Assembly (NCBI GenBank): GCA_024693365.1
Contig: JAILLF010000016.1
Span: forward strand, 1-64,000
Direction of reading: 5' to 3'
DNA length: 64,000 nt
From: Acetatifactor sp.
GTDB lineage: Bacteria; Bacillota; Clostridia; Lachnospirales; Lachnospiraceae
The notes below the pieces were generated by a model. That model worked only from the letters and a program-made list of their open reading frames with translations. It did not search any database and was not told where the DNA came from. Every line of letters begins with the position of its first letter. Position 1 is the first letter of the stretch. Positions 41,209 to 55,554 of the stretch are shown one piece after another. A program made the position numbers and the translations under genes.

Positions 41209-41228
41209 ATTGTTAGGGGGATGACGTG

Positions 41229-41555
41229 ATGGGGTACAGGACAACACTGGGTAAATACATTTCAACGAGAAGAAAGAGCTTAGGCTTTACCCAAGAGGAG
41301 CTGGCAGAGGAGATTGGCGTTTCGAAGTCAGCAGTTGCCAAATGGGAAACAGACGGCGGCCTCCCGGACCGCGACAACCTAAAGAGACTCTCGACAACCT
41401 TAGGCATTTCCGTTGATGAGCTCCATCGCATCATCGAACTGGCAAATGCAAAGCCAATCGATTTCGAGATCAACATCACGCCGGAGATCATCGCCGCCCT
41501 GGAGGCCTACGGATACAAAGTTATCCGCCCCGGCGAGTCAGACCATACCCCATAA
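41229..41555 (+). CDS. XRE-family transcriptional regulator
   Basis: A 108-aa protein with an N-terminal XRE helix-turn-helix (ISTRRKSLGFTQEELAEEIGVSKSAVAKWETDGGLPDRDNL) and a short C-terminal domain (DFEINITPEIIAALEAYGYKVIRP). The ATG at 41229 is preceded by GGGGGATGACG. It stands at the left edge of the AT-rich island, directly upstream of the first c-di-GMP riboswitch, and may regulate the island. Confidence 0.82.
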   Translation: MGYRTTLGKYISTRRKSLGFTQEELAEEIGVSKSAVAKWETDGGLPDRDNLKRLSTTLGISVDELHRIIELANAKPIDFEINITPEIIAALEAYGYKVIRPGESDHTP

Positions 41556-41586
41556 CTTACTTCAACAAAATGATAAGTTCATACTT

Positions 41587-41704
41587 TGGCAAAACAGTCG
41601 AAAGGCTGCGACGCAAAACTAAGAGGGCCTGTGAAATGGTAGCCAGTTGCAAAAGATTTGGAAGCACCGGAAATGACCTGAGCAGGGATTTCGGGTGCTT
41701 TTTG
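41587..41704 (+). ncRNA. Cyclic-di-GMP-I (GEMM) riboswitch with terminator, copy 1
   Basis: The aptamer (about 41587-41653) has the GEMM-I hallmarks: GCAAA, hairpin CAGTC-GAAA-GGCTG with its GNRA tetraloop, the conserved GCGACGCAAA core, and a second hairpin GGCCT...GGTAGCC as tetraloop receptor, closing with AGTTGC. A strong terminator (AAGCACC...GGTGCTT at 41662-41700, then TTTT) follows. It lies 72 bp before a zinc-ribbon membrane protein gene. Whether ligand turns the gene on or off cannot be read directly. Confidence 0.9.
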
Positions 41705-41775
41705 TAAAGAAAAGGGAACGAATTATGGAAGCGTGAATAGTGAGATAAAGAAAAAATGAGAAAGTAGGTGATAGT

Positions 41776-42396
41776 ATGAAAAAATGTATTGAGTGCGGAA
41801 GAAAATTATCTGATGACGTGAAAACTTGCCTTTCCTGTGGGTCGACCTCATTTATGCAAATTGATTCAGACATGAAGGATCAGAAAGATGATTTGAAGAA
41901 TAAATTTGAATATGCAACCCCAAACGCTGAAAAAGCGAATTCTGAACAAGTGAGTGATCAGGGAAACATATTGACGAATACGGATCGGATTGCGGAGAAT
42001 GGCAGATATAGAATCTTGGAAATTATAGGCGGTATACTATGCATTGTTGGTATTTTTCTCCCATTCATTCGCGCATCTTTTTTGGGAAGCGTGGTGGAAA
42101 GAACATTTAGTGATTTGGCACCAAACGATTATGTCATTTTTTTGGTTGTTGCAATCGTTGGGGTTGCTGGAGCCTTTTTTGAAAAACATAAGCTGGCAGC
42201 CTTCGCAGGAATTGCTTATGCAGGATTGTTATATATTGATACGGAATCGTATTTTAAGGATTTAAATGAAAAAGAGTTGGGACAGTTTGTTACAAAAGGT
42301 ATTGGGTTTTATTGCATGGTCGCAGGAATCATTTTACTAATAGTGGTTGGCGGTATTGCCGACAATGAATGGCGCAAGAGGAAGAAAAATAATTGA
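41776..42396 (+). CDS. Zinc-ribbon membrane protein under c-di-GMP riboswitch 1
   Basis: A 206-aa protein. The N-terminal zinc ribbon is CIECGRKLSDDVKTCLSCG (residues 4-22), then a charged linker and three to four membrane helices (LEIIGGILCIVGIFLPFI, YVIFLVVAIVGVAGAFF, LAAFAGIAYAGLLYI, CMVAGIILLIVVGGIA). RBS is AGTAGGTGATAG. It is the first gene after the riboswitch terminator, so its expression should follow c-di-GMP. The family is the generic zinc-ribbon/membrane type, with no defined function. Confidence 0.78.
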   Translation: MKKCIECGRKLSDDVKTCLSCGSTSFMQIDSDMKDQKDDLKNKFEYATPNAEKANSEQVSDQGNILTNTDRIAENGRYRILEIIGGILCIVGIFLPFIRASFLGSVVERTFSDLAPNDYVIFLVVAIVGVAGAFFEKHKLAAFAGIAYAGLLYIDTESYFKDLNEKELGQFVTKGIGFYCMVAGIILLIVVGGIADNEWRKRKKNN

Positions 42397-42496
42397 TAAA
42401 AATGTAAACACATAATAGTATCTTGAGTAGTTTGGTTCCTAAATGCAAGTAAAAAAAAGGAATGAAATCTGAATCGTAAATGAGAAGGGAGTAACC

Positions 42497-43138
42497 ATGG
42501 CATATTGTACAAAGTGCGGCAAACAGCTAGAGCCTAACGCGAGATACTGTGTTTCTTGTGGCGCTCCAGTTATCGGTAATGACGACTTATTTTCGCATGA
42601 AAACGGCATGAATGAAGGCCGAGTACATGAATGCCCAGCTTGTCATGCGACGATTAATGCGTTTGTTTCCAAATGTCCATATTGTAATCATGAATTCAGG
42701 GATTCCAAATCTACGAATTCATTAGTGAGTATATCAAGGAGAATTCAAGAGATTGATTCCAAGAAAACTTCCTTTTTTTCTCAAACAGATTATGTACAAA
42801 AGACTTATGCAAAAATTGATTTAATCAGATCGTATCCAATTCCAAACACAAAGGAAGACATTGTTGAATTTGCTTTGATGGCAAATACAAACATTGATGC
42901 ACAAGATAATAGAAGGGATTTATCAAATGCATGGCTCGGAAAATTGGAGCAAACATACAGAAAAGCACAATTATCATTGGGGAACGATCCTGCCGTCGAA
43001 ATGATAAGAAAAATGTATGAGGAAAAACGGAAAGCTATGGAATTTGGAAGAAAAAAAGATTTAATTGTCATGCTTTCAGCAGCCCTTTTTTTGGTTATGA
43101 TTTTGCTAATTTATTTTTTGGCTATGCGGTCGCTATAA
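42497..43138 (+). CDS. Zinc-ribbon protein with C-terminal membrane anchor
   Basis: A 213-aa protein with two N-terminal ribbons (CTKCGKQLEPNARYCVSCG, residues 4-22, and CPACHATINAFVSKCPYC, about 49-66), a helical cytosolic body and a single C-terminal membrane helix (LIVMLSAALFLVMILLIYFL, about 190-210). It would be a tail-anchored cytosolic domain. RBS is GAAGGGAG. Probably in the same c-di-GMP-controlled unit as the preceding gene, 100 bp away. Confidence 0.75.
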   Translation: MAYCTKCGKQLEPNARYCVSCGAPVIGNDDLFSHENGMNEGRVHECPACHATINAFVSKCPYCNHEFRDSKSTNSLVSISRRIQEIDSKKTSFFSQTDYVQKTYAKIDLIRSYPIPNTKEDIVEFALMANTNIDAQDNRRDLSNAWLGKLEQTYRKAQLSLGNDPAVEMIRKMYEEKRKAMEFGRKKDLIVMLSAALFLVMILLIYFLAMRSL

Positions 43139-43302
43139 GCGACGGAATGGAGAAAAAGCTTTCTGTAAACATGGCAGAGTTATTTAAGAACATGAGAACT
43201 CAGTTGGTAATCGCTTAGGACATATTGAGGGGCAGGCATCAATGATTCCTTGGGGGCGCAGCTGTCATTTGTGTTTCGACAGTAACTGCTATATAGTGAT
43301 GC

Positions 43303-43488
43303 ATGGAAGAAGGCACTGAAGTTGACAATCCGTGGAGTTATGAGGGCAATTCCGATCATCCGATGTGTCCGGAATGCCGAGGCAAAATGGATTTTTATGG
43401 GCATGATGATTCGGGAGATTTCCCGTATGGTGAGGGTTATTGGGAATGTAATGAATGTGGATTTAAGATTAGTGAAGACGAATTATAA
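43303..43488 (+). CDS. Small zinc-ribbon protein, possibly a remnant
   Basis: A 61-aa frame with a clear ribbon (MCPECRGKMDFYGHDDSGDF... to CNECGFKISEDEL). There is no ribosome binding site, and two stop codons lie 3-9 bp upstream in the same frame, so it may be the preserved end of a larger decayed gene. It sits in a gene-poor stretch between the two riboswitch units. Confidence 0.4.
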   Translation: MEEGTEVDNPWSYEGNSDHPMCPECRGKMDFYGHDDSGDFPYGEGYWECNECGFKISEDEL

Positions 43489-43498
43489 GAATCCAATT

Positions 43499-43779
43499 CA
43501 AAGCATTCTGATATTTTCCAATAACCACATCGACGTGCAGAACCGTTATGATCGCATCAAGACATGCTGTGTCATCAGATTGAAAGCATGAAAGGACTTA
43601 CGGAGGATGACGCGGAAGCAGAGGCGGAAGTTATTTCCGAGGCAGCCTGTTCGAAAAATTATCCCCTAAATTTTGACATAAATGGTTTCAAAAGAAACTT
43701 TGCAACAGTTGTGGACATTTTAAGAAGAGGCGTCCATGAGAAAGGAGGAAGCTGTGCCATAATTTGTAACCAGAAATGA
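43499..43779 (+). pseudogene. Decayed coding remnant
   Basis: Two short frames seem to continue one another across a frameshift near 43560. One reads NNHIDVQNRYDRIK, the other CHQIESMKGLTEDDAEAEAEVISEA and onward to about 43779. Neither has a proper start. This suggests an eroded gene of unknown family just ahead of the second riboswitch promoter. Bases 43139-43302 likewise hold only broken frames. Confidence 0.35.
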
Positions 43780-43787
43780 CAATTATC

Positions 43788-43817
43788 TTGACAGCATTCG
43801 CAACTGTGAATTATAAT
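43788..43817 (+). promoter_or_regulatory. Sigma-A promoter of c-di-GMP riboswitch 2
   Basis: TTGACA (43788-43793) and TATAAT (43812-43817) are both consensus and 18 bp apart. Transcription would start about 25 nt before the aptamer, exactly as a riboswitch leader requires. Confidence 0.8.
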
Positions 43818-43849
43818 TTTATTATAAACCAAATAATAATACAAATTAG

Positions 43850-43966
43850 CAAAACAGTCGAAAGGCTGCGACGCAAAGCTAGAAGGGCCTGTAAAATGGT
43901 AGCCAGTTGCAATGTGTTTATAAGCATCAGGAGTGACCGCAGGGCCATTTCAGATGCCTTTTTTGT
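43850..43966 (+). ncRNA. Cyclic-di-GMP-I (GEMM) riboswitch with terminator, copy 2
   Basis: The aptamer (about 43850-43911) is nearly identical to copy 1: GCAAA, CAGTC-GAAA-GGCTG, GCGACGCAAAGC, then GGCCT...GGTAGCC and AGTTGC. A terminator-like hairpin (AAGCATC...GATGCCTT, 43922-43960, then TTTTTTG) follows. The next gene starts 63 bp later. The likely controlled unit runs from 44029 to about 53642. Confidence 0.9.
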
Positions 43967-44028
43967 TTTGCAAAGGAATGACATGAGACGAACAAAAAAG
44001 ATATTGAATCACGAAGGAGAATAATGAA

Positions 44029-44370
44029 ATGCGTATTAATGAAAATGAAATGCAGCAAATAAGAGCTATTTTAGAACAAACAACCAGATTGACATTTCCA
44101 TTCATTGCTAATAAGCAAAAGAAGGAAAAGATGTTGAGGGATGAACGATATAGAATCGAAAATAAAATTGAAAAGATTCTTATGGAATACACCCAAATGC
44201 GGAAAGAATTTGAAGAAAGAAAAGATGAGATATGGAATTCATCAGTAGACATTTCAGTAGATAAGTTTAAGAGTTTGCCAGATAAACTGCAGTTAAATTC
44301 TTTTTATTTTCAGGAAGTGATGCATGAGTATGTCGAAGAAATTATTAATCTGTTATGCGAGGAGGAATAA
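44029..44370 (+). CDS. Coiled-coil protein, first gene after riboswitch 2
   Basis: A 113-aa soluble, highly charged helical protein (NKQKKEKMLRDERYRIENKI..., then EYTQMRKEFEERKDEI), with likely coiled coil at about residues 30-70. RBS is GAAGGAGA. It is the first gene behind the riboswitch terminator and is 2 bp from the TerB-like gene. No family recognised; probably a structural partner of the following proteins. Confidence 0.7.
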   Translation: MRINENEMQQIRAILEQTTRLTFPFIANKQKKEKMLRDERYRIENKIEKILMEYTQMRKEFEERKDEIWNSSVDISVDKFKSLPDKLQLNSFYFQEVMHEYVEEIINLLCEEE

Positions 44371-44372
44371 AA

Positions 44373-44774
44373 ATGTATCTTATGATATTAGATGCTGATA
44401 AGAGGCATATCTTTTTAGATCTGGAATTATATATGGTAAATGCGGATGAGGATTTTTCGAATGAGGAAAAAATGATTATTGATGCGCACTGCATGGAAAT
44501 GCATATTGACAATAACCAATATGAACCGCACTTACCCTTGGATGAAGTACTTAAGCGCATCAAGGATAATTTTTCTGCCAGAGAGAAGCATATCGTTTTT
44601 CTTGAGTTGGCAGGTGCAATTTTAGCAGATGGAATTCTTCACGAGGGAGAACAGAAACTGGTTTCGTTGTTAAAGGAATGCCTGGAGTTGAGTCAGGATG
44701 AAATTGATAGAGCATATTTAATAATGTCTGAAATGAAATCTGTATACGAGAAATGTGCTGAATATGTAAGGTAG
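44373..44774 (+). CDS. TerB-like protein
   Basis: A 133-aa helical protein with features of the TerB fold: DEDFSNEEKMIIDAHCMEM, REKHIVFLELAGAILADGILHEGEQKLVSLLKECL (about 73-107) with the typical A-x-ADG-x-x-xxEQ acidic turn, and LSQDEIDRA. TerB domains bind metal and sit at the membrane in stress and phage-defence systems. The ATG at 44373 has GAGGAGG directly upstream and is preferred over an in-frame ATG at 44355. It is followed closely by the large membrane protein. Confidence 0.72.
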   Translation: MYLMILDADKRHIFLDLELYMVNADEDFSNEEKMIIDAHCMEMHIDNNQYEPHLPLDEVLKRIKDNFSAREKHIVFLELAGAILADGILHEGEQKLVSLLKECLELSQDEIDRAYLIMSEMKSVYEKCAEYVR

Positions 44775-44783
44775 GTGATTAGA

Positions 44784-46658
44784 GTGAGTGTGCATGAAAA
44801 GAAAATGTTACTGATGCAGAAATATGGGCCATCAAGTACAACAATGTATTATTCTGGGCCACTGCAATTAGAGAAAAAGGAAAAAAGCATTAAAAAACAT
44901 ATTAACCCATATTTCGATAAGGATAAAACCTTGGGATTAATAGATACTACGCTTGGAAATTCAGGTAAATCAGGCTATTTATTTACGGACAGTTGCGTTT
45001 ACTATGTTGAAACCCTTTCAAAACCACAAAAGCTTTGGTACGATGAAATAATAAGCGTGGAAGTGTTGGACAAACAAAAAAAAGATTGTGATCGAACATT
45101 GGCTTTTCACATGGATAACGGGTCTACTATATACTGGTATTCGAGCTTCCTTAACAAATCGCCATTATTGTCTTTATTTACAGATTTGCTAAATCTTGAT
45201 AATGATTTGTCCGGTCAAACAGAAATACATTATAAAGCTATAAATGAAAGTGGTCCAACTGCAGGCGGTTTAGAGATAGGTGCATATGGACAGGTAAACA
45301 AGTTATACGAAGAGGAGAAATTTCATGCACAGCAAGGGCATGGATACGCAGCTGAGCGTGCAAATAATTTATATGACAAATTACATGGACGAGATGCACG
45401 TATTGTTGGTGATAATAATGCTAAAAATGGCGCTGATAGAATAGTTGATGGCATATATATTCAGTCTAAGTATTGCGCAACGGGAAAAGCTTGCATAGAT
45501 GAATGCTTTAAGGATGGGGAGTTCCGTTATATGATAGATGGCAAGCCCATGCAGATTGAAGTGCCTTCGGACAAATATGAAGCGGCTGTTGAAGCGATGC
45601 AAGAAAAAATTAGACAAGGTAAAATCCCTGGCGTAAGTGATCCAAAAAAGGCCAAAGAAATTGTAAGAAAAGGTCACTTTACATATCAACAGGTAAAGAA
45701 TATAGCAAAAGCAGGAACGGTTGAATCAATAACTTATGATGCGGTAAATGGTATAATCATTGCAAGTTGTGCTTTCGGTGTCTCGGCTATGATTACCTTG
45801 GCGGCCAATCTTTGGAATGGTGAAGATTTTAATAAATCAATTAAACTTGCGACATATTCAGGACTAAAAGTTGGAGGAACGGCGTTTTTAGCCACGGTTA
45901 TAGCTAGCCAGCTATCAAAGGCGGGGTTAAATAGTGCATTAGTGGGCAGTTCAGAAGCAATTGTAGCTATGATGGGGCCGAAAGCTTCTGCGGTACTTAT
46001 AAATGCATTTAGGAATGGAAGTAATATCTATGGTGCTGCAGCCATGAAGAGCGCGGCTAAGTTACTAAGAGGCAATGTGATCACAGCCTGTGTTACGGTT
46101 GTTGTTTTGTCGGCATTTGATGTGGCTAATATTTTCAGAGGGAGAATTTCTGGAAAACAATTGTTTAAGAATGTGGCAAATACAACTGTGATGGTTGGCG
46201 CGGGAACGAGTGGATGGCTAGCTGGAGCAGCGGTGGGAACCGCGATATTTCCTGGCGTAGGAACGGTTGTTGGAATTGCGGGTGGTCTTATAGGCTCTGT
46301 TGTTGCCGGTGGCGTTGCAGGCAAGGCATCAAATGCTCTTTTGGGTATATTTGTTGAAGACGATGCAGAAGAGATGATAAGAATAATACAAGATCGTTTT
46401 AAGAAGTTGTCTGAAGATTATTTGCTTACGCAGAATGAAGCTGAAAAAATTGTAGATAACCTAAGTAAAGAACTCGATGGGAAAAAGCTTAAAGACATGT
46501 TTGCAAGCAAAGACAGAAATAAATATGCAGATGATATGCTTGATCCAATCATTGAAAAACAGGTTAAAAAGAGGCAACATATTAAAGAAATAGATCCTGA
46601 CATAATGGCAGCAACCCTTAAGGAGGTTCTGGAGGAGATTGCTGACGTGACTTCATAA
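44784..46658 (+). CDS. Large glycine-zipper membrane protein of a widespread unknown family
   Basis: A 624-aa protein. Residues 1-150 look like a small beta domain (PH-like). Residues about 185-310 are a conserved soluble region (HGYAAERANNLYDKLHGRDA, VGDNNAKNGADRIVDGIYIQ, KYC...ACIDECF) that resembles proteins seen in many unrelated bacteria. Residues about 320-525 alternate hydrophobic helices and Gly/Ala-rich zipper stretches (GWLAGAAVGTAIFPGVGTVVG), as in pore-forming or membrane-inserting proteins; a helical tail follows. The GTG at 44784 is chosen for its spacing from AGGTAGGTG. No function is known to me; together with TerB it suggests a membrane stress or defence module. Confidence 0.7.
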   Translation: MSVHEKKMLLMQKYGPSSTTMYYSGPLQLEKKEKSIKKHINPYFDKDKTLGLIDTTLGNSGKSGYLFTDSCVYYVETLSKPQKLWYDEIISVEVLDKQKKDCDRTLAFHMDNGSTIYWYSSFLNKSPLLSLFTDLLNLDNDLSGQTEIHYKAINESGPTAGGLEIGAYGQVNKLYEEEKFHAQQGHGYAAERANNLYDKLHGRDARIVGDNNAKNGADRIVDGIYIQSKYCATGKACIDECFKDGEFRYMIDGKPMQIEVPSDKYEAAVEAMQEKIRQGKIPGVSDPKKAKEIVRKGHFTYQQVKNIAKAGTVESITYDAVNGIIIASCAFGVSAMITLAANLWNGEDFNKSIKLATYSGLKVGGTAFLATVIASQLSKAGLNSALVGSSEAIVAMMGPKASAVLINAFRNGSNIYGAAAMKSAAKLLRGNVITACVTVVVLSAFDVANIFRGRISGKQLFKNVANTTVMVGAGTSGWLAGAAVGTAIFPGVGTVVGIAGGLIGSVVAGGVAGKASNALLGIFVEDDAEEMIRIIQDRFKKLSEDYLLTQNEAEKIVDNLSKELDGKKLKDMFASKDRNKYADDMLDPIIEKQVKKRQHIKEIDPDIMAATLKEVLEEIADVTS

Positions 46659-46757
46659 AGTGGGATTAAATTGAGGTTGTAAATCAAATAAGTTATTATT
46701 TTGTAAATATTTCTAAAGAATTATGGGTTAGATGATACTGCTTGTTGAGGTGATTTC

Positions 46758-46985
46758 ATGGAAGGATACATGACGATTAAAGAAACTGCGGAACAATGGA
46801 ATTTAACAATCAGACGTGTTCAGAAAATGTACGCTGATGGTAAAATCGAAGGGGTACAGAAGTTTGGAATCGCGTGGGTAATTCCATGTGATGCCAAAAG
46901 ACCAATTGACGGAAGAATAAGCACAGGTAAGTATAAGGATTGGCGCCAAAAGCATTCATCTAAAAATATATCTTACAGTGAATAG
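46758..46985 (+). CDS. Excisionase/MerR-like small HTH protein
   Basis: A 75-aa DNA-binding protein of the excisionase-like winged HTH type: MTIKETAEQWNLTIRRVQKMYADGKIEGVQKFGIAWVIP, then a conserved KRPIDGRISTGKY tail. RBS is GAGGTGATTTC. Such proteins are common in mobile regions of Clostridia and can be regulators rather than recombination factors; no integrase is present here. It lies between the membrane protein and the surface protein genes. Confidence 0.8.
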   Translation: MEGYMTIKETAEQWNLTIRRVQKMYADGKIEGVQKFGIAWVIPCDAKRPIDGRISTGKYKDWRQKHSSKNISYSE

Positions 46986-47038
46986 TGGAATTGAGACTGT
47001 TCAATTTTTGTACACATTGTTGGATTTGGGAGAAAACG

Positions 47039-50000
47039 ATGGACAAAAGAATGTTTGGGAGAAAAATTATTTTCATCGTTTGTGTATTTATTCTATCGCT
47101 TTCGGTGCCGAGTGCAGTTACTGCTGCAGTGACGAAAGAAAGGGTGAATGCACAAAAATATGAAGCAAATAGCGGATCCACCTATGTTTTCAAAGCAGAA
47201 GATAAAGTTTCTTCATATGTATATGGGAAAGAATCGGTGGGATGGTTCTATCTTGAGGGAGAGCTGCGTAATGCTGGAAAATATAATGGTGTGGACGCAT
47301 TTGGAACCAAGTCAAATGTGACTTTCGGTTATGAATATTACAATAATTTCCATTACGGCACCGAGGATGACTGGCGTTTGTATGGCAGTGATTGGTTCGA
47401 AAACAAGATTGTATTTGAGGGGCAGGATGTTAAGACTTCCTCACAGATTAACGATGGTACCATAATTGTGCAAAAATCTGATGACGGAATCAACTGGACC
47501 ACGATGACATCTTTGCAGGATTGTTTTAACTTGGGAACTAAAGGAAGGGATTCTCTATACATAACACCATCAGAAGAAGTGCGAAAAGGAACATATTATC
47601 GTGTGATAGTTGCTTACACCATGAAAAAACGTACAAAGGCAAACCCAATCCCTGCATTAGATGAGTATGACAGAAGAACTTTTGCTGAAGTCTACAGATT
47701 CTTTTTGTGCTCGGATTTTGACTTTGTGACTATCAACGATATATCGACAAGAAGGGAACTTACATTACCTGCTAATGTAAATGATGGGTTTTATGTTAAG
47801 AAAAATGGGAGCAGTGCAACCGTAAAAGTTAAAAAGACGCAGGGGATGGTATCATATGCAAATGACAACGAAGCTTATACTTCTTCAGGTGACTATACAA
47901 TTACGGTTACAACGCTACTAAATAAAGAATTTGTCTATCGCATATCTGTAAATAAGGGTATTACCATGAAAGAAGTATCAGCAAAAATTTACGAGTGCGA
48001 TGAAAAGAAAGGGTATGTAGCGGAGGGAATAGGGAATGCCGTACCTTTGTGTGGGGGAAGTGCGCATTGTAAGCTTTTTATTGGACATGATTCGGAACGC
48101 GAAGTAATAGAGACGAGAAAAAATAACATAAATACATATGGCGTACAGGGGGATGCTGCTGGATTTTATGTGGCTCTCTCAAATTTATATAATGGATGGA
48201 ATATAGTAAGTGATACATGGGGGAGGAAAGCTGAAGAAACCGTCAACGGAATTACAACTGGAGAGGTTGGAACCGGTGCCATCATCATCCAAAAATCAGC
48301 CGACGGCATCAATTGGATAAATGCTGATTATGCAGGGTATGCGAATGGTTTATATACTACCGATTATGAGAACCATTATGGCTCAGATGCTAAGATGTTA
48401 GTGTTCACGCCGGACGGAGAAGACATCTCAAAAGGAACATATTACAGGGTTTTCTATGCATACAAGGTTCAAAAGGATAAAACTGTAAAAAGATATTTGG
48501 AGGAAGACATTTTTTATCTTTGCAGCGCGTCTACTGAGGCAATAACGTTTAAGAATAAGACAAACAGGGATACTCTTGAAAAGCAGTATTCGGATATGGA
48601 TTCTGCGACTGCATCCATATGCAGAGGTTCCGAAACGATGTTGTCGGGATCTTGTACTACTACGGGCTTTTTGGTAGATTATTCAAGTAATAAGGCGGCG
48701 ACGGTCGTATTTAAGAAAAACGGGAAGGTGATTGGTCAGAATCTAAAGGAAATAAATGAAACTGGAAAATACGACATCGTAATAACTACGGCAGCCGGAA
48801 ACAGTCAGACGGTAACTATCTATGTAGACAGGGAAAACAAAGAAGACATTTATAAGAGATACTTTGGTGAATCATTTGTTCAAGGTGTGCGAGTATTGTT
48901 ACCGAGCAATGTCCCCGTTTATGAGGGCGGAACAAAAACAATGTACCATATTGAAGCCGTTTCGGATGAATTTTTGCCGTTGTATGGAACAATAACTAAT
49001 ACGACAACTAATTCCGTAAAAGAAATTAGCGGAAGCTCTTTTTCAAAGAGCGGTTATTTGACTGAGGCGGGAGAGTATACTGCCGTTTTTCATACAAACA
49101 GAACATTTGCCACTGAATCAAAATCGGGAGATGACGTTGTTATAACTATAAAATTCGAGGTTATTCCGGCAGGAACAGCACCTGGTCCGATGATCAATCG
49201 AGATAGGTTGAGAGAGTATTCAAAAACAATGCTGTCTGACGCTAAACCAATATATTATGGATTAACATATAATGTTAGCAAGGGAAGAATTACAAAGGCT
49301 TTTGCGACAAAAGAGGCAGCAATCAATTACGCTTATGATTATGAGATGAAACATAATGCTGAGAAGAACGCTGACGGTTCAATAGATCATTATAAGAATA
49401 ATGACTACAATTCTACCGCATATCAGGGAGCATTTATCACTGATAAGGAGAATTATAAGGACGCATGGGAATTACCTGAAGCAATTTATAACTATGCAGA
49501 AACAGCGGTGAAAAAATCCTACTTTGATTATGGTAATGAGTATACTCTTAATTATGATGATATAGAAGTGAAAAAAGCAATGGAATCAGGGGATTATATA
49601 TCGCTTAAATTAAACCACAGTGTTACTATTTTCGCTGATGAAGAACAAAAAGAGGCGCTCATGGATGTGGGTGATTCTTTGCCATTTATATCAGACAAGC
49701 CTTGTAAATATGCGTCAGTATCTGACCGCTCAAATTCTATTGAAGGATATAATCATTTCGAATTTACGAGTGATCCTTACGGGGCTGATTCATATGAAGT
49801 GATAATCACTGATGTTAATGGGAAAAGATATCGCATAGAGTATGATTTGAGCGTTGGAAAACAATTAGCGGATGCCGGCTGTCCCAGCTGCATTGTCTCC
49901 ATCGTTGAAAGAACTAAGTATGGACAAGAATGTGAACCTTACAAGGCTATTTTTATCAGACCAGACGAGAATACTGGTATAATAAAGATTGCTTTTGATG

Positions 50001-50875
50001 GAGAGAAAGAGATTAGGTCCTTTACGCAAGAGGATGATGCACAAGAGGATGATAAATTAATTGAGTGCAATACTTTCATCATCAGTGATTTGAAAGATGA
50101 TTTGGATCCGTACGGAGTCATCATTATTTCTCATGAAGATGAAACAGTGTTTTACACCAAAGAAGAGTTGGACGGTACAAAATGGGATTTGCCAGGCGTA
50201 TATGAAATTAAGTATCTAAATCGTTTAGGCCATTCATTTACTGTGAAGATTAAGGTAAAAGAAAACGATGTGGCGGTCATATCTTTTGAAGGCCCATGCA
50301 GTGAAGATCTAGAAGAAATACATGTAATGTATGGAGATGCACATGTTGAACTGAAAACTCCTGAGAGAATTGGTTATGATTTTGTTGGATTTGCGGATCC
50401 TGAATTTGAAGGTATTGTATACAACAGTGAGATTGAAAGCATATTGTTTAGAGGAGAAAAAAAGCTAATAACAAAGTGGAGTGCCAAGAAGTTTACCATG
50501 TCTACATTAGTAGATGGAGTGATAACGGATTATCCAATTTATTATGGACAACTAATTCCTTTGCCTAGGCCAACGCTTGAGACGGGAGATGAATTCTGCG
50601 GGTGGTTGCTTGATGGCGTGGAATATCAGGATGAGAATTATAGATTGGAAGAAGAACGAGATGTCTTATTTGAAGCTGTAATTAAAAAGGCTAACATTAA
50701 TGATGAAACATCCGTTGCAGAAGATATGCCACTTAAAAGAAGTGAAGAAGCAAATTCAAATATTGAAATTAATACAAAAAGAACGATAATTGTTATTTGT
50801 GTTTGCGTTGGAGGCATGTTGATTCTTACGACGGTGATTATGATGAGTCGTAAGTCCAGAAACAAGAAAAAGTGA
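47039..50875 (+). CDS. Large cell-surface protein with duplicated domain and C-terminal anchor
   Basis: A 1278-aa exported protein. The signal peptide is MDKRMFGRKIIFIVCVFIL..., cleavage near VTAAV. Two homologous domains occupy about residues 38-305 and 320-600; each carries (G)xIIxQKSxDGINW...(I/F)TP...KGTYYRV...AY. Further beta-rich domains follow, then InlB/listeria-repeat-like units (YDFVGFADPEFEG; LETGDEFCGWLLDG) near 1130-1220. The end is a membrane helix (TIIVICVCVGGMLILTTVIM) and a basic KSRNKKK tail, with no LPXTG motif. The ATG at 47039 behind GGGAGAA begins the signal peptide. Adhesin- or scaffold-like; likely under riboswitch 2. Confidence 0.8.
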   Translation: MDKRMFGRKIIFIVCVFILSLSVPSAVTAAVTKERVNAQKYEANSGSTYVFKAEDKVSSYVYGKESVGWFYLEGELRNAGKYNGVDAFGTKSNVTFGYEYYNNFHYGTEDDWRLYGSDWFENKIVFEGQDVKTSSQINDGTIIVQKSDDGINWTTMTSLQDCFNLGTKGRDSLYITPSEEVRKGTYYRVIVAYTMKKRTKANPIPALDEYDRRTFAEVYRFFLCSDFDFVTINDISTRRELTLPANVNDGFYVKKNGSSATVKVKKTQGMVSYANDNEAYTSSGDYTITVTTLLNKEFVYRISVNKGITMKEVSAKIYECDEKKGYVAEGIGNAVPLCGGSAHCKLFIGHDSEREVIETRKNNINTYGVQGDAAGFYVALSNLYNGWNIVSDTWGRKAEETVNGITTGEVGTGAIIIQKSADGINWINADYAGYANGLYTTDYENHYGSDAKMLVFTPDGEDISKGTYYRVFYAYKVQKDKTVKRYLEEDIFYLCSASTEAITFKNKTNRDTLEKQYSDMDSATASICRGSETMLSGSCTTTGFLVDYSSNKAATVVFKKNGKVIGQNLKEINETGKYDIVITTAAGNSQTVTIYVDRENKEDIYKRYFGESFVQGVRVLLPSNVPVYEGGTKTMYHIEAVSDEFLPLYGTITNTTTNSVKEISGSSFSKSGYLTEAGEYTAVFHTNRTFATESKSGDDVVITIKFEVIPAGTAPGPMINRDRLREYSKTMLSDAKPIYYGLTYNVSKGRITKAFATKEAAINYAYDYEMKHNAEKNADGSIDHYKNNDYNSTAYQGAFITDKENYKDAWELPEAIYNYAETAVKKSYFDYGNEYTLNYDDIEVKKAMESGDYISLKLNHSVTIFADEEQKEALMDVGDSLPFISDKPCKYASVSDRSNSIEGYNHFEFTSDPYGADSYEVIITDVNGKRYRIEYDLSVGKQLADAGCPSCIVSIVERTKYGQECEPYKAIFIRPDENTGIIKIAFDGEKEIRSFTQEDDAQEDDKLIECNTFIISDLKDDLDPYGVIIISHEDETVFYTKEELDGTKWDLPGVYEIKYLNRLGHSFTVKIKVKENDVAVISFEGPCSEDLEEIHVMYGDAHVELKTPERIGYDFVGFADPEFEGIVYNSEIESILFRGEKKLITKWSAKKFTMSTLVDGVITDYPIYYGQLIPLPRPTLETGDEFCGWLLDGVEYQDENYRLEEERDVLFEAVIKKANINDETSVAEDMPLKRSEEANSNIEINTKRTIIVICVCVGGMLILTTVIMMSRKSRNKKK

Positions 50876-50895
50876 TCATGAGCAAGGGGCGAACT

Positions 50896-53187
50896 ATGAG
50901 AAAAATGAACATTAAGATAAACAGAATACTGTCTTTGGTTGTTAGTTTCGCTCTGTTAATAACAAGTTTTTCGGGGTGCGCTGATAATCATGCTGCGATT
51001 TCAAATCCGTCGAAAAACGACATTACTACTGAAGAGATAGTAAGTCATGTTATCGAAACTTTGACGGAAGGACAGACAGAGAGCGAGAAACCTGGAATAG
51101 AGGAAGTAGAAAAGGCCGGCATCAGCGTTATTATGTCTGATAACTGGGAGGATTACATTGGTGACGTAGAAACATTTGTTTATGGCTTAATATCAAATGA
51201 ATTAGGCTTGGGGTTTGATGTCTTTCCGGCATATGTAGATTTGTCTGACGGTACGGTGATTTCTGGAATAGCATATTCTGATTACGAAGACTGCTATGTA
51301 AATGATGATGAGAGTCAATGTATATTCATGGCAGGATTTATGCCATATTGTGGAGAGCTAGACATACCATCAGATGAATTTGACGATGGGTTATTTATTC
51401 AGGATGCTGAATATGATAATGAGAAGTTTTCATTCATCATGGGTTATGAAAGTGATGAATACAGAGATCATTGCGTAGTGTATGGTCAGTATCTGCAATA
51501 CGGCATTGATGACAGTGGAAAGATTTTTTATGAAACTAGTCCATATGAACAAGGAAAGTGCAATGAAACACTGGGATCTTTGTATTCATTTGACGAAGCA
51601 AAATATGTTTATGATGATAATGTGGGAGGAAATCTACTATTATCAGGCATTTCACTTTATTCTCAGATTGACTATGCAGAATTGGAAAATGCGATAAATG
51701 AAATGCTCAGAACACAGGATCGAAACTCCTATACCATGGAAATCGAAACTTCAGCTTATTTTGCGCAAGAGGCCGTAGAAGCATATTTCATGACGTTGCA
51801 AGAGGAGAGTTTCTTGGGATACAGTACGGCTGATCTTATTGAGGAGACTCGTAAACTTGACCCTAAGGAATGTTACAGAATAACAAATGAAGGCTTGATT
51901 AAGCTAAGCTTTGAGGATGAAGGAGGAGAAGCTAGTCTTGTAAAATGGATAGTTGGTTCAACTTGCGCGATAGTTGCCATAATCGGTTTTGTTGGGGCCT
52001 CTGTTTCTAAAACATATCCGCCGCTATCTGCCGCTGCAGGCGCAATAAGTGGATTGGCAATTGATGTATTTATGCAAGTGGTGATCGAAGATGTAAGATT
52101 AGTTGAACTAGATTGGAGAAAGTCAATTGTAGCTATCGTCGCAGGAGCACTCAGTGGTTATATAGGGCCATATGTATATGCAGCGGCATCAAACACTGCG
52201 ACATATTTTGCAATGGATACATGCATAGAAGCACTGATAGGCGGAATAGAAATGGGGGCTAGAGCATGGCTCGATGGAGAAGATGGGAAAAAAATAATAC
52301 AGTCAATGGGACAAGGGTTTGCTATTGCTATGGCATTAAGCGCAGGGTTTAAGGTGGCAGGAGTTGTAGTTGAGAAGATTGCAAGAAAGATTAGCCCTGT
52401 AATCAAAGAGGCATCGATAAGAATAAATCCCACCGTCAAAAAGAAACTCAGTAAATTACAAAAAGTCATTGCGAAAAAGATTAAGAATTTCGAAAAATGG
52501 GCAGACGGAACAAAGCTTCATAGTGAATATATATCTGAAAAGATTACGGATAAGCAATTGGAGAAATTGCTTGAGGAGGGATCAAAGTATCTAAAGGATA
52601 AAAGCATTAAAAAATTGAGCTTAAATGATATGTTTGACATGAATGACAAACCCATTTCTAAGTCAGAACTGAGTGAACTTTTTGATGAAGCACCTGATAA
52701 TACCGTTTTGGCATATTTTAAGGTTGATGAAGATATCATTGAGGTAGTAAAAGTCAACGGAATCGTTTCCGTACGAACTGATGAAACAAAATATCTAACG
52801 GTGGAATTAGATTCGTGGCTTAACGCAAATAAATACTCAAGAGACGATAATTTAAAAAATGCAGTTGAAAAGATTAAAAAAGTTTGTTCGAAGGACTCGG
52901 AAAGAATTCCAGAAGTCCTTGCTGATGCCATCGAGAAAAGCAATGTCAAGCTAGAAGATATGTCGGTGTCAAAGCTGCATGAAATGATTAAGAAGAGCGG
53001 ACTGACTTTGCACGAAAATGGAGACATGAAGACCATAACGCTTATGCCAAGGAAAATTCATGAAAGCATAAAGCATATGGGCGGATTTGGACTGGCAAAG
53101 CATTTGAAATTTCATCAAGGCCATGAAAGATTAAGCAGTTTTATATCTGCAGCATCCATGGGAACGATAACGGCTGTCACGGAGTAA
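50896..53187 (+). CDS. Lipoprotein with membrane region and HNH/LHH-like toxin C-terminus
   Basis: A 763-aa protein. A lipoprotein signal ends in the lipobox SFSGC (about residue 25), then comes an acidic extracellular region (about 30-340), a Gly/Ala-rich membrane region (about 345-495) and a soluble helical part. The C-terminus (about 700-763) has LTLHENGDMKTITLMPRKIH and ESIKHMGGFG, the pattern of HNH/EndoVII-type LHH toxins (LHH/LHE...LxPxxIH...HxGG). This domain order matches polymorphic toxins. Three in-frame starts are possible; the ATG at 50896 lies just after AAGGGG. It is followed 14 bp later by a candidate immunity gene. Toxin function is inferred, not shown. Confidence 0.68.
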   Translation: MRKMNIKINRILSLVVSFALLITSFSGCADNHAAISNPSKNDITTEEIVSHVIETLTEGQTESEKPGIEEVEKAGISVIMSDNWEDYIGDVETFVYGLISNELGLGFDVFPAYVDLSDGTVISGIAYSDYEDCYVNDDESQCIFMAGFMPYCGELDIPSDEFDDGLFIQDAEYDNEKFSFIMGYESDEYRDHCVVYGQYLQYGIDDSGKIFYETSPYEQGKCNETLGSLYSFDEAKYVYDDNVGGNLLLSGISLYSQIDYAELENAINEMLRTQDRNSYTMEIETSAYFAQEAVEAYFMTLQEESFLGYSTADLIEETRKLDPKECYRITNEGLIKLSFEDEGGEASLVKWIVGSTCAIVAIIGFVGASVSKTYPPLSAAAGAISGLAIDVFMQVVIEDVRLVELDWRKSIVAIVAGALSGYIGPYVYAAASNTATYFAMDTCIEALIGGIEMGARAWLDGEDGKKIIQSMGQGFAIAMALSAGFKVAGVVVEKIARKISPVIKEASIRINPTVKKKLSKLQKVIAKKIKNFEKWADGTKLHSEYISEKITDKQLEKLLEEGSKYLKDKSIKKLSLNDMFDMNDKPISKSELSELFDEAPDNTVLAYFKVDEDIIEVVKVNGIVSVRTDETKYLTVELDSWLNANKYSRDDNLKNAVEKIKKVCSKDSERIPEVLADAIEKSNVKLEDMSVSKLHEMIKKSGLTLHENGDMKTITLMPRKIHESIKHMGGFGLAKHLKFHQGHERLSSFISAASMGTITAVTE

Positions 53188-53201
53188 AGGAGACATAACT
53201 C

Positions 53202-53642
53202 ATGTTTGGTAATGGATTTGGTCGTTTTAGGAAAAGATACAGGGTATTACAATCTCAGATTTGTGAATTGGAAAAAGAACTGGATTTTTTAGAAAATAGT
53301 TTACATTCCACGAAATGGAAGGGATATAACTATGGCCCAATAAAGTATTATGCTGAGAGATATGCTAATTGTGAGGATACACATGAAAAAGAAAGAGTTC
53401 TGTCGGTGTGCGAAAAATTGGATTCTGTTATAGAAGAGTTTGATATGTTCATTGAAAACGAATATGCCCCAAAAGTATTTGATTATTATTCCGTAAAGAA
53501 ACCCAAGGTGACTCGAATTAGTACGGATGAAGTGTATGGTTGGGAAGAGGCATTTGGGAAATCATTTGAAGATTTGGATAAAAGCCTTAGACATTCACTG
53601 GTAGGTTTAGTTGAGGAGCCTGGCAGATACGGATTTTCTTGA
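53202..53642 (+). CDS. Candidate immunity protein
   Basis: A 146-aa soluble acidic protein with an N-terminal coiled-coil-like helix (LQSQICELEKELDFLENSL) and no recognised family. It begins 14 bp after the toxin-like gene (RBS GGAGAC) and is the last gene before the tandem repeat and terminator. Position directly behind a toxin-type C-terminus is the usual place for a cognate immunity gene; that is the only basis for the call. Confidence 0.5.
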   Translation: MFGNGFGRFRKRYRVLQSQICELEKELDFLENSLHSTKWKGYNYGPIKYYAERYANCEDTHEKERVLSVCEKLDSVIEEFDMFIENEYAPKVFDYYSVKKPKVTRISTDEVYGWEEAFGKSFEDLDKSLRHSLVGLVEEPGRYGFS

Positions 53643-53874: not shown

Positions 53875-53920
53875 AATAGAGTAAAGATTTAGTTGGTTGA
53901 TAAAAAAAGATAAAAAAAGA

Positions 53921-53990
53921 GAGAGTAATCTTTAATCCTTTGGTACAATGGTTTTGGACAAAAATCAAAAACTAAAGGAGGATTACTCTC
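53921..53990 (+). promoter_or_regulatory. Transposase promoter inside an RBS-masking inverted repeat
   Basis: GAGAGTAATC (53921-53930) is the exact complement of GATTACTCTC (53981-53990), which lies between the RBS AAAGGAG and the transposase ATG. A -10-like TACAAT (53944-53949) lies between the arms. Transcripts from this internal promoter would lack the first arm, while readthrough from outside would include it and could hide the start. Confidence 0.55.
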
Positions 53991-55445
53991 ATGAGTATTG
54001 TATCACTTTTTGACGAATTAGCGAAGAGTATTTTTGCGGCGGAGGAGAATTTTTTTCAGAATCCCCGGGACCTGCATTCACTGGAGACCAGCGTAAAGAC
54101 TTCCACGGAGGCGTTCGCCGCCAGGTTTCTTGGTGAAGTGCTGTCCGGACTGGACAAGTGCATTTACGAAAGCACCTGGCGGGACGGGAAATACGCGGTT
54201 CAGCGCAGGGACAAAAGAACGCTGATCAGCTCCGTCGGAGACGTTACGTTTGACTGCACTTATTACCGCGGGATCGGCGAACGCTCCGGCTTTACGCACC
54301 TTTTGGAAGACCTCATCGGCCTGGAGAGGAACGAGAGGTTTACCGAAGCGGCGGAGGTCGCAATGCTGTGCGAGGCGTTAAAGACCAGTTACCGCGAGGC
54401 GGCAAGGGTTCTGCCTTCCAAACAGGTGATCACGAAGACCACGGTCATGAACAAGGTGCACGGGATTGCGGAAGAGATTCCGGACGCGGCGCGCGAGGAA
54501 CGCAGGTCGGTGCCGTACCTGTACGTTGAGGCGGACGAAGATCACGTGGCGGAACAGCACGGAAGAAGCGCCAAAGAAGGGGAAAACGGAAGCTTTATGT
54601 GCAAGCTGGTCTACGTATACGAATGCAGGCGGGAAACGGACGTAAAGGATCGCTTTGAGCTCGTGAACAAGTATTACTTTGGAGGCCTTTATTCGGGACG
54701 GGAAGGCACGAGGAGGCTTTGGGAAAAGGTAAACCGCTTTATAGAACTCAACTACGACGCGGAGGACTTAAAGCGCATTTTTGTCAGCGGGGACGGCGCG
54801 GGATGGATCAAGGCCGGCGCGTCCTACCTCGGTAACGCGGTGTTCTGCGCCGACAAGTATCACCTCATGCAGTACCTGAACACCGCCGCGGGGCAATTTC
54901 CGGAAGAAAGGGACGCCGTGAAGGAAGAGCTGTGGCACCTGCTTCATTCGGAACGCGCGGGCGCGAAAAAAAGATTTGACGCGTACACGGGCGTGATGAC
55001 GGAGAAGGCTAAAAATCCAAAGGTCGTGGAGCAGTTAAGGGCATACGTTTTGGGCAACTGGAGTGCCGTGAGAAGAACGCTTAAAAACAAGCTCCTTACG
55101 GGATGCAGCGCGGAAAGCCACGTAAGCCACGTGCTTTCGGACCGCCTCAGCTCCAGACCGATGGGCTGGAGCCAGTCGGGCGCGGACAGGATGAGCAAGC
55201 TGCGCTGTTACGAGAGAAACAACGGGCGCGAGAAGATCATAGACCTGGTCAGGTACAGCCGCGAACGGCGAAGAATGGGCGCAACGGGAACGGAAGACCT
55301 GAGCCCGCGCGAATTGTCGGTGCACGACGTCACGGATTATCACCGCAGTCAGGCGAGGGCGTACATCGAACGGATCCAGGCGCACATACCGTTTGCCTCG
55401 ATCAGAAAGATGTTGTTCGTACGGGATCACATGGATTTGCTTTAG
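53991..55445 (+). CDS. ISLre2-family transposase
   Basis: A 484-aa transposase (UPF0236/ISLre2). Recognisable blocks are VGDVTFDCTYYR, YLYVEADEDHV (likely first catalytic Asp region), IFVSGDGAGWIKAG, FCADKYHLMQYL, a long helical stretch, and the C-terminal SHVLSDRLSSRPMGWSQSGADRMSKLR, the conserved end region. Full length, no stop or frameshift. The base composition is GC-rich, like the chromosome and unlike the neighbouring island, so the element probably came from a host-like replicon. RBS is AAAGGAGG. Confidence 0.93.
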   Translation: MSIVSLFDELAKSIFAAEENFFQNPRDLHSLETSVKTSTEAFAARFLGEVLSGLDKCIYESTWRDGKYAVQRRDKRTLISSVGDVTFDCTYYRGIGERSGFTHLLEDLIGLERNERFTEAAEVAMLCEALKTSYREAARVLPSKQVITKTTVMNKVHGIAEEIPDAAREERRSVPYLYVEADEDHVAEQHGRSAKEGENGSFMCKLVYVYECRRETDVKDRFELVNKYYFGGLYSGREGTRRLWEKVNRFIELNYDAEDLKRIFVSGDGAGWIKAGASYLGNAVFCADKYHLMQYLNTAAGQFPEERDAVKEELWHLLHSERAGAKKRFDAYTGVMTEKAKNPKVVEQLRAYVLGNWSAVRRTLKNKLLTGCSAESHVSHVLSDRLSSRPMGWSQSGADRMSKLRCYERNNGREKIIDLVRYSRERRRMGATGTEDLSPRELSVHDVTDYHRSQARAYIERIQAHIPFASIRKMLFVRDHMDLL

Positions 55446-55554
55446 GGTTTTGACATTTGGAACCGAAAGAGGTAAAATGAATTGCGTTCTGCAAAATCAT
55501 GGTATTCTAAGGTTTCTTTTTTTGATTCCCAACCAACAACAACTTTACTCTATC

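Follow-up and report, generated by a model that had tools for sequence, protein, structure and literature searches.

Do the genes that stand behind two GEMM-I riboswitches in an AT-rich island of an Acetatifactor sp. genome belong together, and if so, what might they do? The island lies in a stretch of 64,000 nucleotides (nt) of contig JAILLF010000016.1 (assembly GCA_024693365.1), which was analysed at its full length and is referred to here as the window; its guanine-plus-cytosine content is 0.36-0.39 between 42 and 54 kb and 0.43-0.53 in the remaining window. A sequence-only reading had proposed that all genes of the island form a single contact or defence module responding to cyclic diguanosine monophosphate (cyclic di-GMP), and the two aptamers, the terminators, the AT-rich island and the gene order are present as it stated. 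The part of the island that recurs in other genomes is a set of three genes on the forward strand, encoding a surface protein of 1278 residues that we call Surf (47039-50875), a likely toxin lipoprotein of 763 residues that we call Lipo (50896-53187; an earlier GTG start at 50872 gives 771 residues), and a candidate immunity protein of 146 residues (53202-53642). We consider it probable, from sequence comparison, that 47039-53642 is a polymorphic toxin-immunity operon for a surface-displayed, contact-delivered nuclease placed behind a GEMM-I riboswitch; toxicity, delivery, immunity and the ligand of the switch are what we infer in this reading.

Conservation of the surface protein, the lipoprotein and the third gene

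The Lipo alignment was used in a pattern-based scan of 84,980 species genomes, which returned 15 other loci (L010-L024; L026, from a family search, is contained in L014 and was left out of the counts), and ten window proteins were compared by BLAST, at a threshold of 0.001, with the open reading frames (ORFs) of these loci up to 10 kb on each side. Surf lies immediately 5' of Lipo in all 14 informative loci, L013 being uninformative for Surf because it starts inside Lipo at a contig edge. Measured in nine sets, the spacing of the two genes runs from -41 to +20 nt; Surf is in two pieces in L012 and Lipo is in two pieces in L016. Homologues of the 146-residue gene follow Lipo in eight of the 15 loci (L010, L011, L014, L015, L018, L019, L020 and L023). 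The earlier suggestion of a candidate immunity gene accompanying a surface protein and a likely toxin is borne out to the extent that the three form a conserved operon. None of the remaining window genes recurs in the 15 loci at 0.001, except for one helix-turn-helix (HTH) match of 40 residues, about 7 kb beyond Lipo in L011.

The operon is rare and occurs sporadically. A large protein set held 122 Lipo matches (the window protein included), those with a named organism coming from Lachnospiraceae, Butyrivibrio or Fusibacillus, and in the species-genome scan the layout was also found among Lachnospiraceae, Butyrivibrio, Fusibacillus, Blautia, Ruminococcus and others. Full-length Lipo is present in at least two of 397 family genomes (own included) and in at least one of 138 genus genomes (own genome alone), both of these being lower bounds because few candidates were scored per genome (2 and up to 7, respectively). 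Partial matches were dropped; they mostly covered the signal peptide and lipobox region, a few the tip or middle, and one extended over 114 N-terminal positions in genome G501 at 1e-9. The sporadic presence of the module suggests horizontal spread. Carriage on mobile elements was considered and rejected: Lipo has no match at 1e-5 among 72,556 plasmid and 50,697 phage records, and neither the Lipo nor the Surf profile matched viral contigs. In five loci, a gene that by eye is exonuclease-like and is 53-77% identical to the L021 copy lies no more than about 6 kb from Surf-Lipo (L010, 4935-5657; L020, 75-629; L021, 5265-5915; L125, 2899-3549; L126, 10457-11107). This gene is not in the window, and it may mark an insertion site. 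Directly upstream of Surf in L012, an ORF at 784-2235 matches PDC-M09B, a candidate defence protein, over its full length (2.5e-209).

Surf features a predicted signal peptide, a large ectodomain and a C-terminal membrane anchor. The window protein itself has no Pfam match at 0.001, and InlB alone was found as a solved relative, by a weak match (0.037); an InlB-type repeat is seen in 14 of the 33 members of the Surf alignment, and judging from these relatives such a repeat would lie near the C-terminal end of the window protein. Lipo begins with a lipobox (Cys28), followed by a conserved ectodomain (about residues 80-345), hydrophobic segments (about 350-500) and a nuclease-like tip of the WHH/LHE type (about 650-735). 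Over residues 690-732 the profile of Lipo matches 8bd1, an Rhs tip of solved structure (2.8e-6), with vlHEniD...H...GGisHmGG of Lipo aligned with vWHHHQD...H...GGVAHTGG. Two relatives exceed their Pfam cut-offs (P0183 with 28.7 bits, cut-off 25; P0220 with 29.9 bits for WHH, cut-off 25.1), and at 0.001 six of 29 alignment members match WHH and one matches Colicin-DNase. The motif of WHH nucleases consists of WHH, L, H and HxG, as given in the passages on this family in PMC3482391. The 8bd1 match and the relatives passing the Pfam cut-off lead us to read the window tip as an LHE variant of the WHH nuclease superfamily; it had been described as HNH/LHH-like, of which LHH does not hold, the match being Colicin-DNase/WHH-like instead. 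Over the 110 aligned proteins with a WHH/LHE tip, H706, E707, H727 and G729 are each present in all 110, H722 in 109 and D710 in 105. This pattern bears on the possibility that Surf and Lipo make up an adhesion or biofilm device with an enzymatically dead C-terminal domain, to which the InlB-type repeat in part of the alignment, the membrane anchor, a riboswitch for a motility and biofilm signal and the E in place of the second H of WHH would all lend themselves. However, the motif residues are essentially invariant and the other tips replace the whole domain, and we think such a device very improbable.

Among 120 listed Lipo proteins (own included), 110 have the WHH/LHE tip, three have a tip with the pattern '..MDIDDI..GWW' (P0238-P0240), one has a tip that is PD-(D/E)XK-like by eye (P0236), and six look truncated. 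The GWW tip is also the one carried by Lipo in L021 and L024; in L019 the BLAST alignment ends at residue 455, with a tail that still has the LHE..H..HxGG motif. No Pfam match was found in the tips of the four proteins with GWW or PD-(D/E)XK-like ends, so that their toxin nature is presumptive, and the GWW tip has no credible solved relative (best E 0.22). A small third gene whose family tracks the tip is present in ten of the 15 loci: all eight loci with a homologue of the 146-residue protein have WHH/LHE-type tips, and in L021 and L024, with the GWW tip, the third gene is of another family, 60% identical between the two over 131 residues and without a BLAST match to the 146-residue protein at E 1. 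Polymorphic toxins are defined by variable tips and linked cognate immunity genes (so the relevant passages of PMC12419801), and here a constant N-terminal family bears three C-terminal tips and is followed by a tip-matched third gene. The tip and the third gene are the least conserved parts of the operon, with mean identities of 31% and 30% against 46% for the Lipo N-terminus and 35% for Surf, and their distances correlate (r 0.55, p 0.02). The 146-residue protein has no hydrophobic segment, which fits cytoplasmic protection; among 25 families listed, no Pfam family is common to two or more of its nine homologues.

A second family shows the same plan. The genus group of Butyrivibrio sp. VCB2006 (G541, the genome of L021) comprises 79 genomes. 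A Surf-type N-terminal domain was found in seven of them, each with an adjacent lipoprotein gene bearing a tip; 16 of the 23 matching genomes were left out, the match being confined to the C-terminal repeat region of Surf. These seven are the modules of L012, L020, L021 and L024 together with three short Surf proteins (G590, G609 and G576), and each short Surf is followed by a lipoprotein of 403-419 residues. The tip of this lipoprotein is LHH, at 83, 63 and 70 bits against a cut-off of 23.3, and its relatives at 1e-10 occur in exactly those three of the 79 genomes. A SUKH protein above cut-off comes next in L124 and L126, and no immunity gene was recognised after the LHH lipoprotein in L125; L124-L126 gave no riboswitch of any kind with Rfam at a loose threshold, and no GEMM-I with a model built from five aptamers of the main family. 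SUKH is a known toxin-immunity family, as treated in part of PMC3482391, so that two families show the plan of surface protein, lipoprotein and immunity protein, one of them with an immunity family already known. It could also be held that Lipo is a surface nuclease directed against incoming phage or free DNA, with the 146-residue protein guarding the cell's own DNA, a defence and not a weapon; a nuclease-like end on an exported protein and neighbours that resemble defence genes in several loci would be in keeping with this. The tip is nevertheless swapped together with the third gene, as in toxin-immunity pairs, and SUKH in the related family points the same way, which makes the defensive role distinctly unlikely in our judgement.

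GEMM-I leaders and the predicted direction of switching

Aptamer 1 (41578-41654; RF01051, 53.3 bits) precedes a pair of zinc-ribbon genes and aptamer 2 (43838-43914; RF01051, 50.6 bits) opens the row that ends with the toxin-immunity genes, both being well above the gathering threshold of 35. Each is followed by a terminator-like hairpin with a U run (41664-41703 and 43924-43964) that starts 10 nt past the last aptamer base, and the two leaders, all on the forward strand, are a 93-nt duplication, 84% identical and 2260 nt apart. No third RF01051 match was found in the 3.7-Mb, 94.5%-complete assembly, in which 150 of 428 first-look candidates were scored. A promoter-like TTGACA-18-TATAAT (43788-43817, forward strand; 12 of 12 positions) ends 20 nt before aptamer 2; the promoter scan gave 46 sites overall against 42 expected, and none comparable near aptamer 1. 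There, a small ORF that by eye encodes an HTH protein (41226-41555) ends 22 nt before the aptamer.

GEMM-I is also found immediately 5' of Surf in L021 and L024, both from Butyrivibrio, which makes two of the 13 loci with upstream DNA. L021 has two aptamers, one before Surf and the other before the exonuclease-like gene. The 13 module genomes yielded 18 GEMM-I elements (up to 150 candidates scored per genome), three of them at the L021 and L024 modules, and in a post-hoc Poisson estimate 0.0009 are expected within 300 nt upstream of Surf, the probability of two or more being about 4.5e-7.

The terminator arm starts 5-10 nt after the last aptamer base in all five leaders, those of the window, L021 and L024. 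A layout in which the terminator coexists with the aptamer and competes with an antiterminator is that of the OFF switch Cd1, as characterised in portions of PMC9262584. Folds of the nascent RNA show the aptamer segment GCCAGUU paired with 6 of the 7 nt of the terminator arm in each Butyrivibrio leader, three in all. That the terminator does not overlap the aptamer suggests, as a prediction of moderate weight that is firmer for Butyrivibrio than for the window, that high cyclic di-GMP would turn the operon off.

Rfam column 11, which we take to be position 20 of Vc2, is G in aptamer 1 and in both L021 aptamers, and A in aptamer 2 and, at the same alignment column, in L024. G20A mutants bind cyclic GMP-AMP (cGAMP) according to passages in PMC6274999 and PMC7288161, and aptamer 2 might on this basis sense 3',3'-cGAMP rather than cyclic di-GMP. 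Against this stand the G in three of the five aptamers and the own genome, in which no match to a SMODS cyclase was found, and we regard cGAMP as a quite improbable ligand. A cGAMP source of the cyclic-oligonucleotide-based antiphage signalling (CBASS) type was rejected on the same SMODS result. In favour of the main reading, GGDEF domains scoring over cut-off number 24 in the own genome; one GGDEF domain is located in the window at 63184-63612, about 9.5 kb past the operon.

TerB, YeeR and the rest of the island

Between aptamer 2 and Surf, likewise on the forward strand, lie a 113-residue ORF of no accepted family (44029-44370), a TerB protein of 139 residues (44355-44774; PF05099, 28.7 bits, cut-off 24.4), a YeeR-family membrane protein of 627 residues with a BnzA-like N-terminus (44775-46658) and a small HTH_17/excisionase-like protein of 75 residues (46758-46985; 20.4 bits, below the cut-off of 27). 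TerB and YeeR are the first and second genes of one set, with 0 nt between them; YeeR and the HTH gene are separated by 99 nt, and the HTH gene and Surf by 53 nt. The proposal of one transcript from 43825 to 53642 has support in so far as the scan showed no convincing terminator or internal promoter on the way. Internal promoter-like sites are at chance level and some may still be active; a single transcript is what we infer.

Close spacing and the missing terminator are also what would speak for a single functional unit of contact or defence, from aptamer 2 as far as 53642, with TerB and YeeR working alongside Surf and Lipo. Further support comes from TerB itself: in L126 a TerB gene precedes Surf at a distance of about 1.3 kb, and in L010 one follows the immunity gene after about 1.7 kb, each being the sole TerB match of its genome. 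A search for TerB, which failed to pick up the window's own copy, matched five of 17 module genomes; two of these, G576 and G532, have their sole TerB match close to a Surf-Lipo set (within about 2.5 kb), so that the TerB link is not empty, and the other three have it elsewhere. In addition, five of eight hand-picked neighbour proteins from six Lipo loci match PADLOC models at 0.001. As a side observation, a TerB protein and a BnzB-like protein with a partial PADLOC match (1.6e-29) lie at 12758-15163 in L010, just downstream of the immunity gene.

These points are set against the behaviour of the TerB-YeeR genes in other genomes. The order of TerB, YeeR, HTH, Surf and Lipo, which the sequence-only reading expected to be conserved, is found in none of the 15 other loci, and a single conserved module of these five genes was rejected; the window's TerB, YeeR, 113-residue ORF and zinc-ribbon proteins all lack a BLAST match there. 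YeeR has at least 2816 homologues, with 60-69% identity among 120 listed, and is sparse, being present in five of 250 family genomes at 1e-50 (own included) and in seven of 101 genus genomes at 0.001, two of these by short stretches alone. In L118 and L120, TerB (46% identical) and YeeR occur in the same order as in the window and together with a gene of about 113 residues that differs from the window's own 113-residue ORF; YeeR and this gene recur without a recognised TerB in four more loci (L119, L121, L122 and L127), and L123 has a distant YeeR (36%) with neither TerB nor the partner gene. Neither Surf nor Lipo is found in any of these seven YeeR loci, of which 8-10 kb each was read, and the window lacks the partner gene. 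TerB and YeeR belong to a separate set, and the earlier claim of one module is supported only in part: a Surf, Lipo and immunity operon with GEMM-I occurs in two Butyrivibrio, and TerB-YeeR stands apart from it. We consider joint action of TerB and YeeR with Surf and Lipo unlikely. The partner gene follows YeeR in six loci, the other five copies being 48-53% identical to that of L118, which has no Pfam match; TerB, YeeR and this gene may constitute an undescribed set.

As for a defence function, none is shown: the sole strong PADLOC match among nine window proteins is that of YeeR residues 33-139 to BnzA (6.3e-12). The Bunzi system (PADLOC; PMC10952713, in the passages on its components) is similar in having TerB beside a protein whose N-terminus matches BnzA, and differs in that the match is confined to residues 33-139 of the 627 in YeeR and that no BnzB match, the second half of the BnzA-BnzB pair by which Bunzi is recognised, was found among the nine proteins.

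Behind aptamer 1 lie, on the forward strand, a zinc-ribbon-like membrane protein of 206 residues with three hydrophobic segments (41776-42396; Pfam 23.1 bits, below the cut-off of 25) and a double zinc-ribbon protein of 213 residues with one hydrophobic segment (42497-43138; 38.9 bits, above cut-off). Both are probably outside the conserved toxin unit. The interval between the two riboswitch units (43303-43779) contains a zinc-ribbon-like ORF of 61 residues and another short ORF. At the right edge of the island, an ORF of 484 residues (53991-55445) is by eye a transposase and is flanked by 41-nt inverted repeats (76% complementary) that span 53876-55553.

Weighing the toxin-immunity reading and its place among known systems

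Several findings weigh against a riboswitch-controlled toxin-immunity operon. The window tip reaches 24.5 bits as a Colicin-DNase/WHH-like domain, just under the Pfam cut-off of 25, and has LHE in place of WHH, with the later H and HxGG kept. About 16 of the 120 Lipo proteins have no clear lipobox by regular expression and by eye, one being N-terminally short; many of these have a plain signal peptide (for example P0132, P0138, P0146, P0148 and P0149), so that lipidation is not essential and secreted forms of Lipo may exist. No third gene was recognised in five of the 15 loci (L012, L013, L016, L017 and L022), all of them WHH/LHE-type or broken; the DNA after Lipo measures 380, 9997, 107, 9913 and 1707 nt, respectively, which means that its absence is no contig effect in L013, L017 and L022, L012 and L016 being near a contig end. 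Distances in the third gene correlate slightly more with those in the Lipo N-terminus (0.62) than with those in the tip, and Surf distances correlate at 0.05 with neither part of Lipo nor with the third gene, so Surf may be inherited or recombine apart from them. Upstream DNA is available for 13 loci, and GEMM-I is missing from 11 of them (at least 614 nt in each), which makes the link between riboswitch and operon lineage-specific. Hidden GEMM-I elements were rejected: the five-aptamer model, run over 27 sources, returned those five and two noise-level matches (12 bits, E 3.5 and 4.1). In the window leaders the terminator arms pair over 6 of 16 and 6 of 15 nt with other upstream sequence and not with GCCAGUU. 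Minimum-energy folds of the full leaders, a model that does not include the ligand-bound form of the aptamer, retain the terminator in three of five cases (window leader 1, leader L021b and L024) but not in leader L021a nor in window leader 2, where it is dismantled.

Taken as a toxin-immunity operon, the three genes would work as follows. Surf would be exported, kept in the cell membrane by its C-terminal helix and displayed on the surface, where Lipo, exported and usually lipid-anchored, would be displayed as well. On contact, Surf or the Lipo ectodomain would bind a neighbouring cell, the hydrophobic middle of Lipo would help to bring the C-terminal HNH-type nuclease into that cell, and the tip would cut nucleic acid inside it, siblings being protected by the cytoplasmic 146-residue protein. 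The riboswitch would allow expression in the low cyclic di-GMP state and shut it off when the signal is high; TerB-YeeR, a separate unit between the switch and Surf, may share the transcript. More tentatively, and with less confidence than we place in the operon itself, Surf and Lipo may represent a system by which Gram-positive gut Clostridia deliver toxins on contact, self-contained and without need of type VII secretion, with Surf as membrane-anchored presenter, a lipid-anchored Lipo that has its own membrane-crossing region, and exchangeable nuclease tips; in some lineages, cyclic-dinucleotide riboswitches would then tie arming to the motile or sessile decision.

The LXG toxins of type VII secretion in Gram-positive bacteria are also polymorphic and come with immunity genes; in contrast, neither the window Lipo nor 28 relatives have an LXG or WXG match in Pfam, and in their place Lipo carries a lipobox or a signal peptide. 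This lineage is not expected to have an outer membrane. SitA of myxobacteria, as portrayed in the pertinent parts of PMC8546572, is likewise a lipoprotein whose N-terminal escort part stays constant and whose nuclease tips are polymorphic and act in the cytoplasm, with cognate immunity genes beside it, but it travels by outer-membrane exchange, whereas Lipo has a Surf gene in the same operon, a hydrophobic middle and, in three genomes, a riboswitch. In the MafA/MafB system of Neisseria, compared by layout from the section on it in PMC3482391, a surface protein gene likewise lies just upstream of a toxin with a constant N-terminus and a polymorphic C-terminus, yet there the partner bears the lipobox and here the toxin does. 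Lipobox-cystatin-like toxins, described in passages of the lipocone study (PMC12419801), share the lipobox, a constant domain, several C-terminal toxin domains and related immunity genes; their tips mostly concern lipids or the cell wall, and those passages name no Surf-like partner or riboswitch. Cd1 of Clostridioides difficile (PMC9262584, in the parts on its mechanism) is alike in that terminator and aptamer can coexist and in being an OFF switch, as predicted here, and differs in governing flagellar genes where the present leader has a likely toxin-immunity operon downstream. Within the collection of papers searched there was no description of the operon layout of 47039-53642, no paper joining a polymorphic toxin with a cyclic di-GMP riboswitch and none combining a polymorphic toxin, a riboswitch and an immunity protein.

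Toxin delivery between Gram-positive bacteria is known mainly by way of type VII secretion. If the toxin-immunity reading is true, Surf and Lipo would provide a second, simpler layout, a presenter together with a lipoprotein toxin, and a testable route of contact killing in Lachnospiraceae, Butyrivibrio, Fusibacillus, Blautia, Ruminococcus and others, and a cyclic di-GMP riboswitch before a toxin-immunity operon would tie a lifestyle signal to antagonism.

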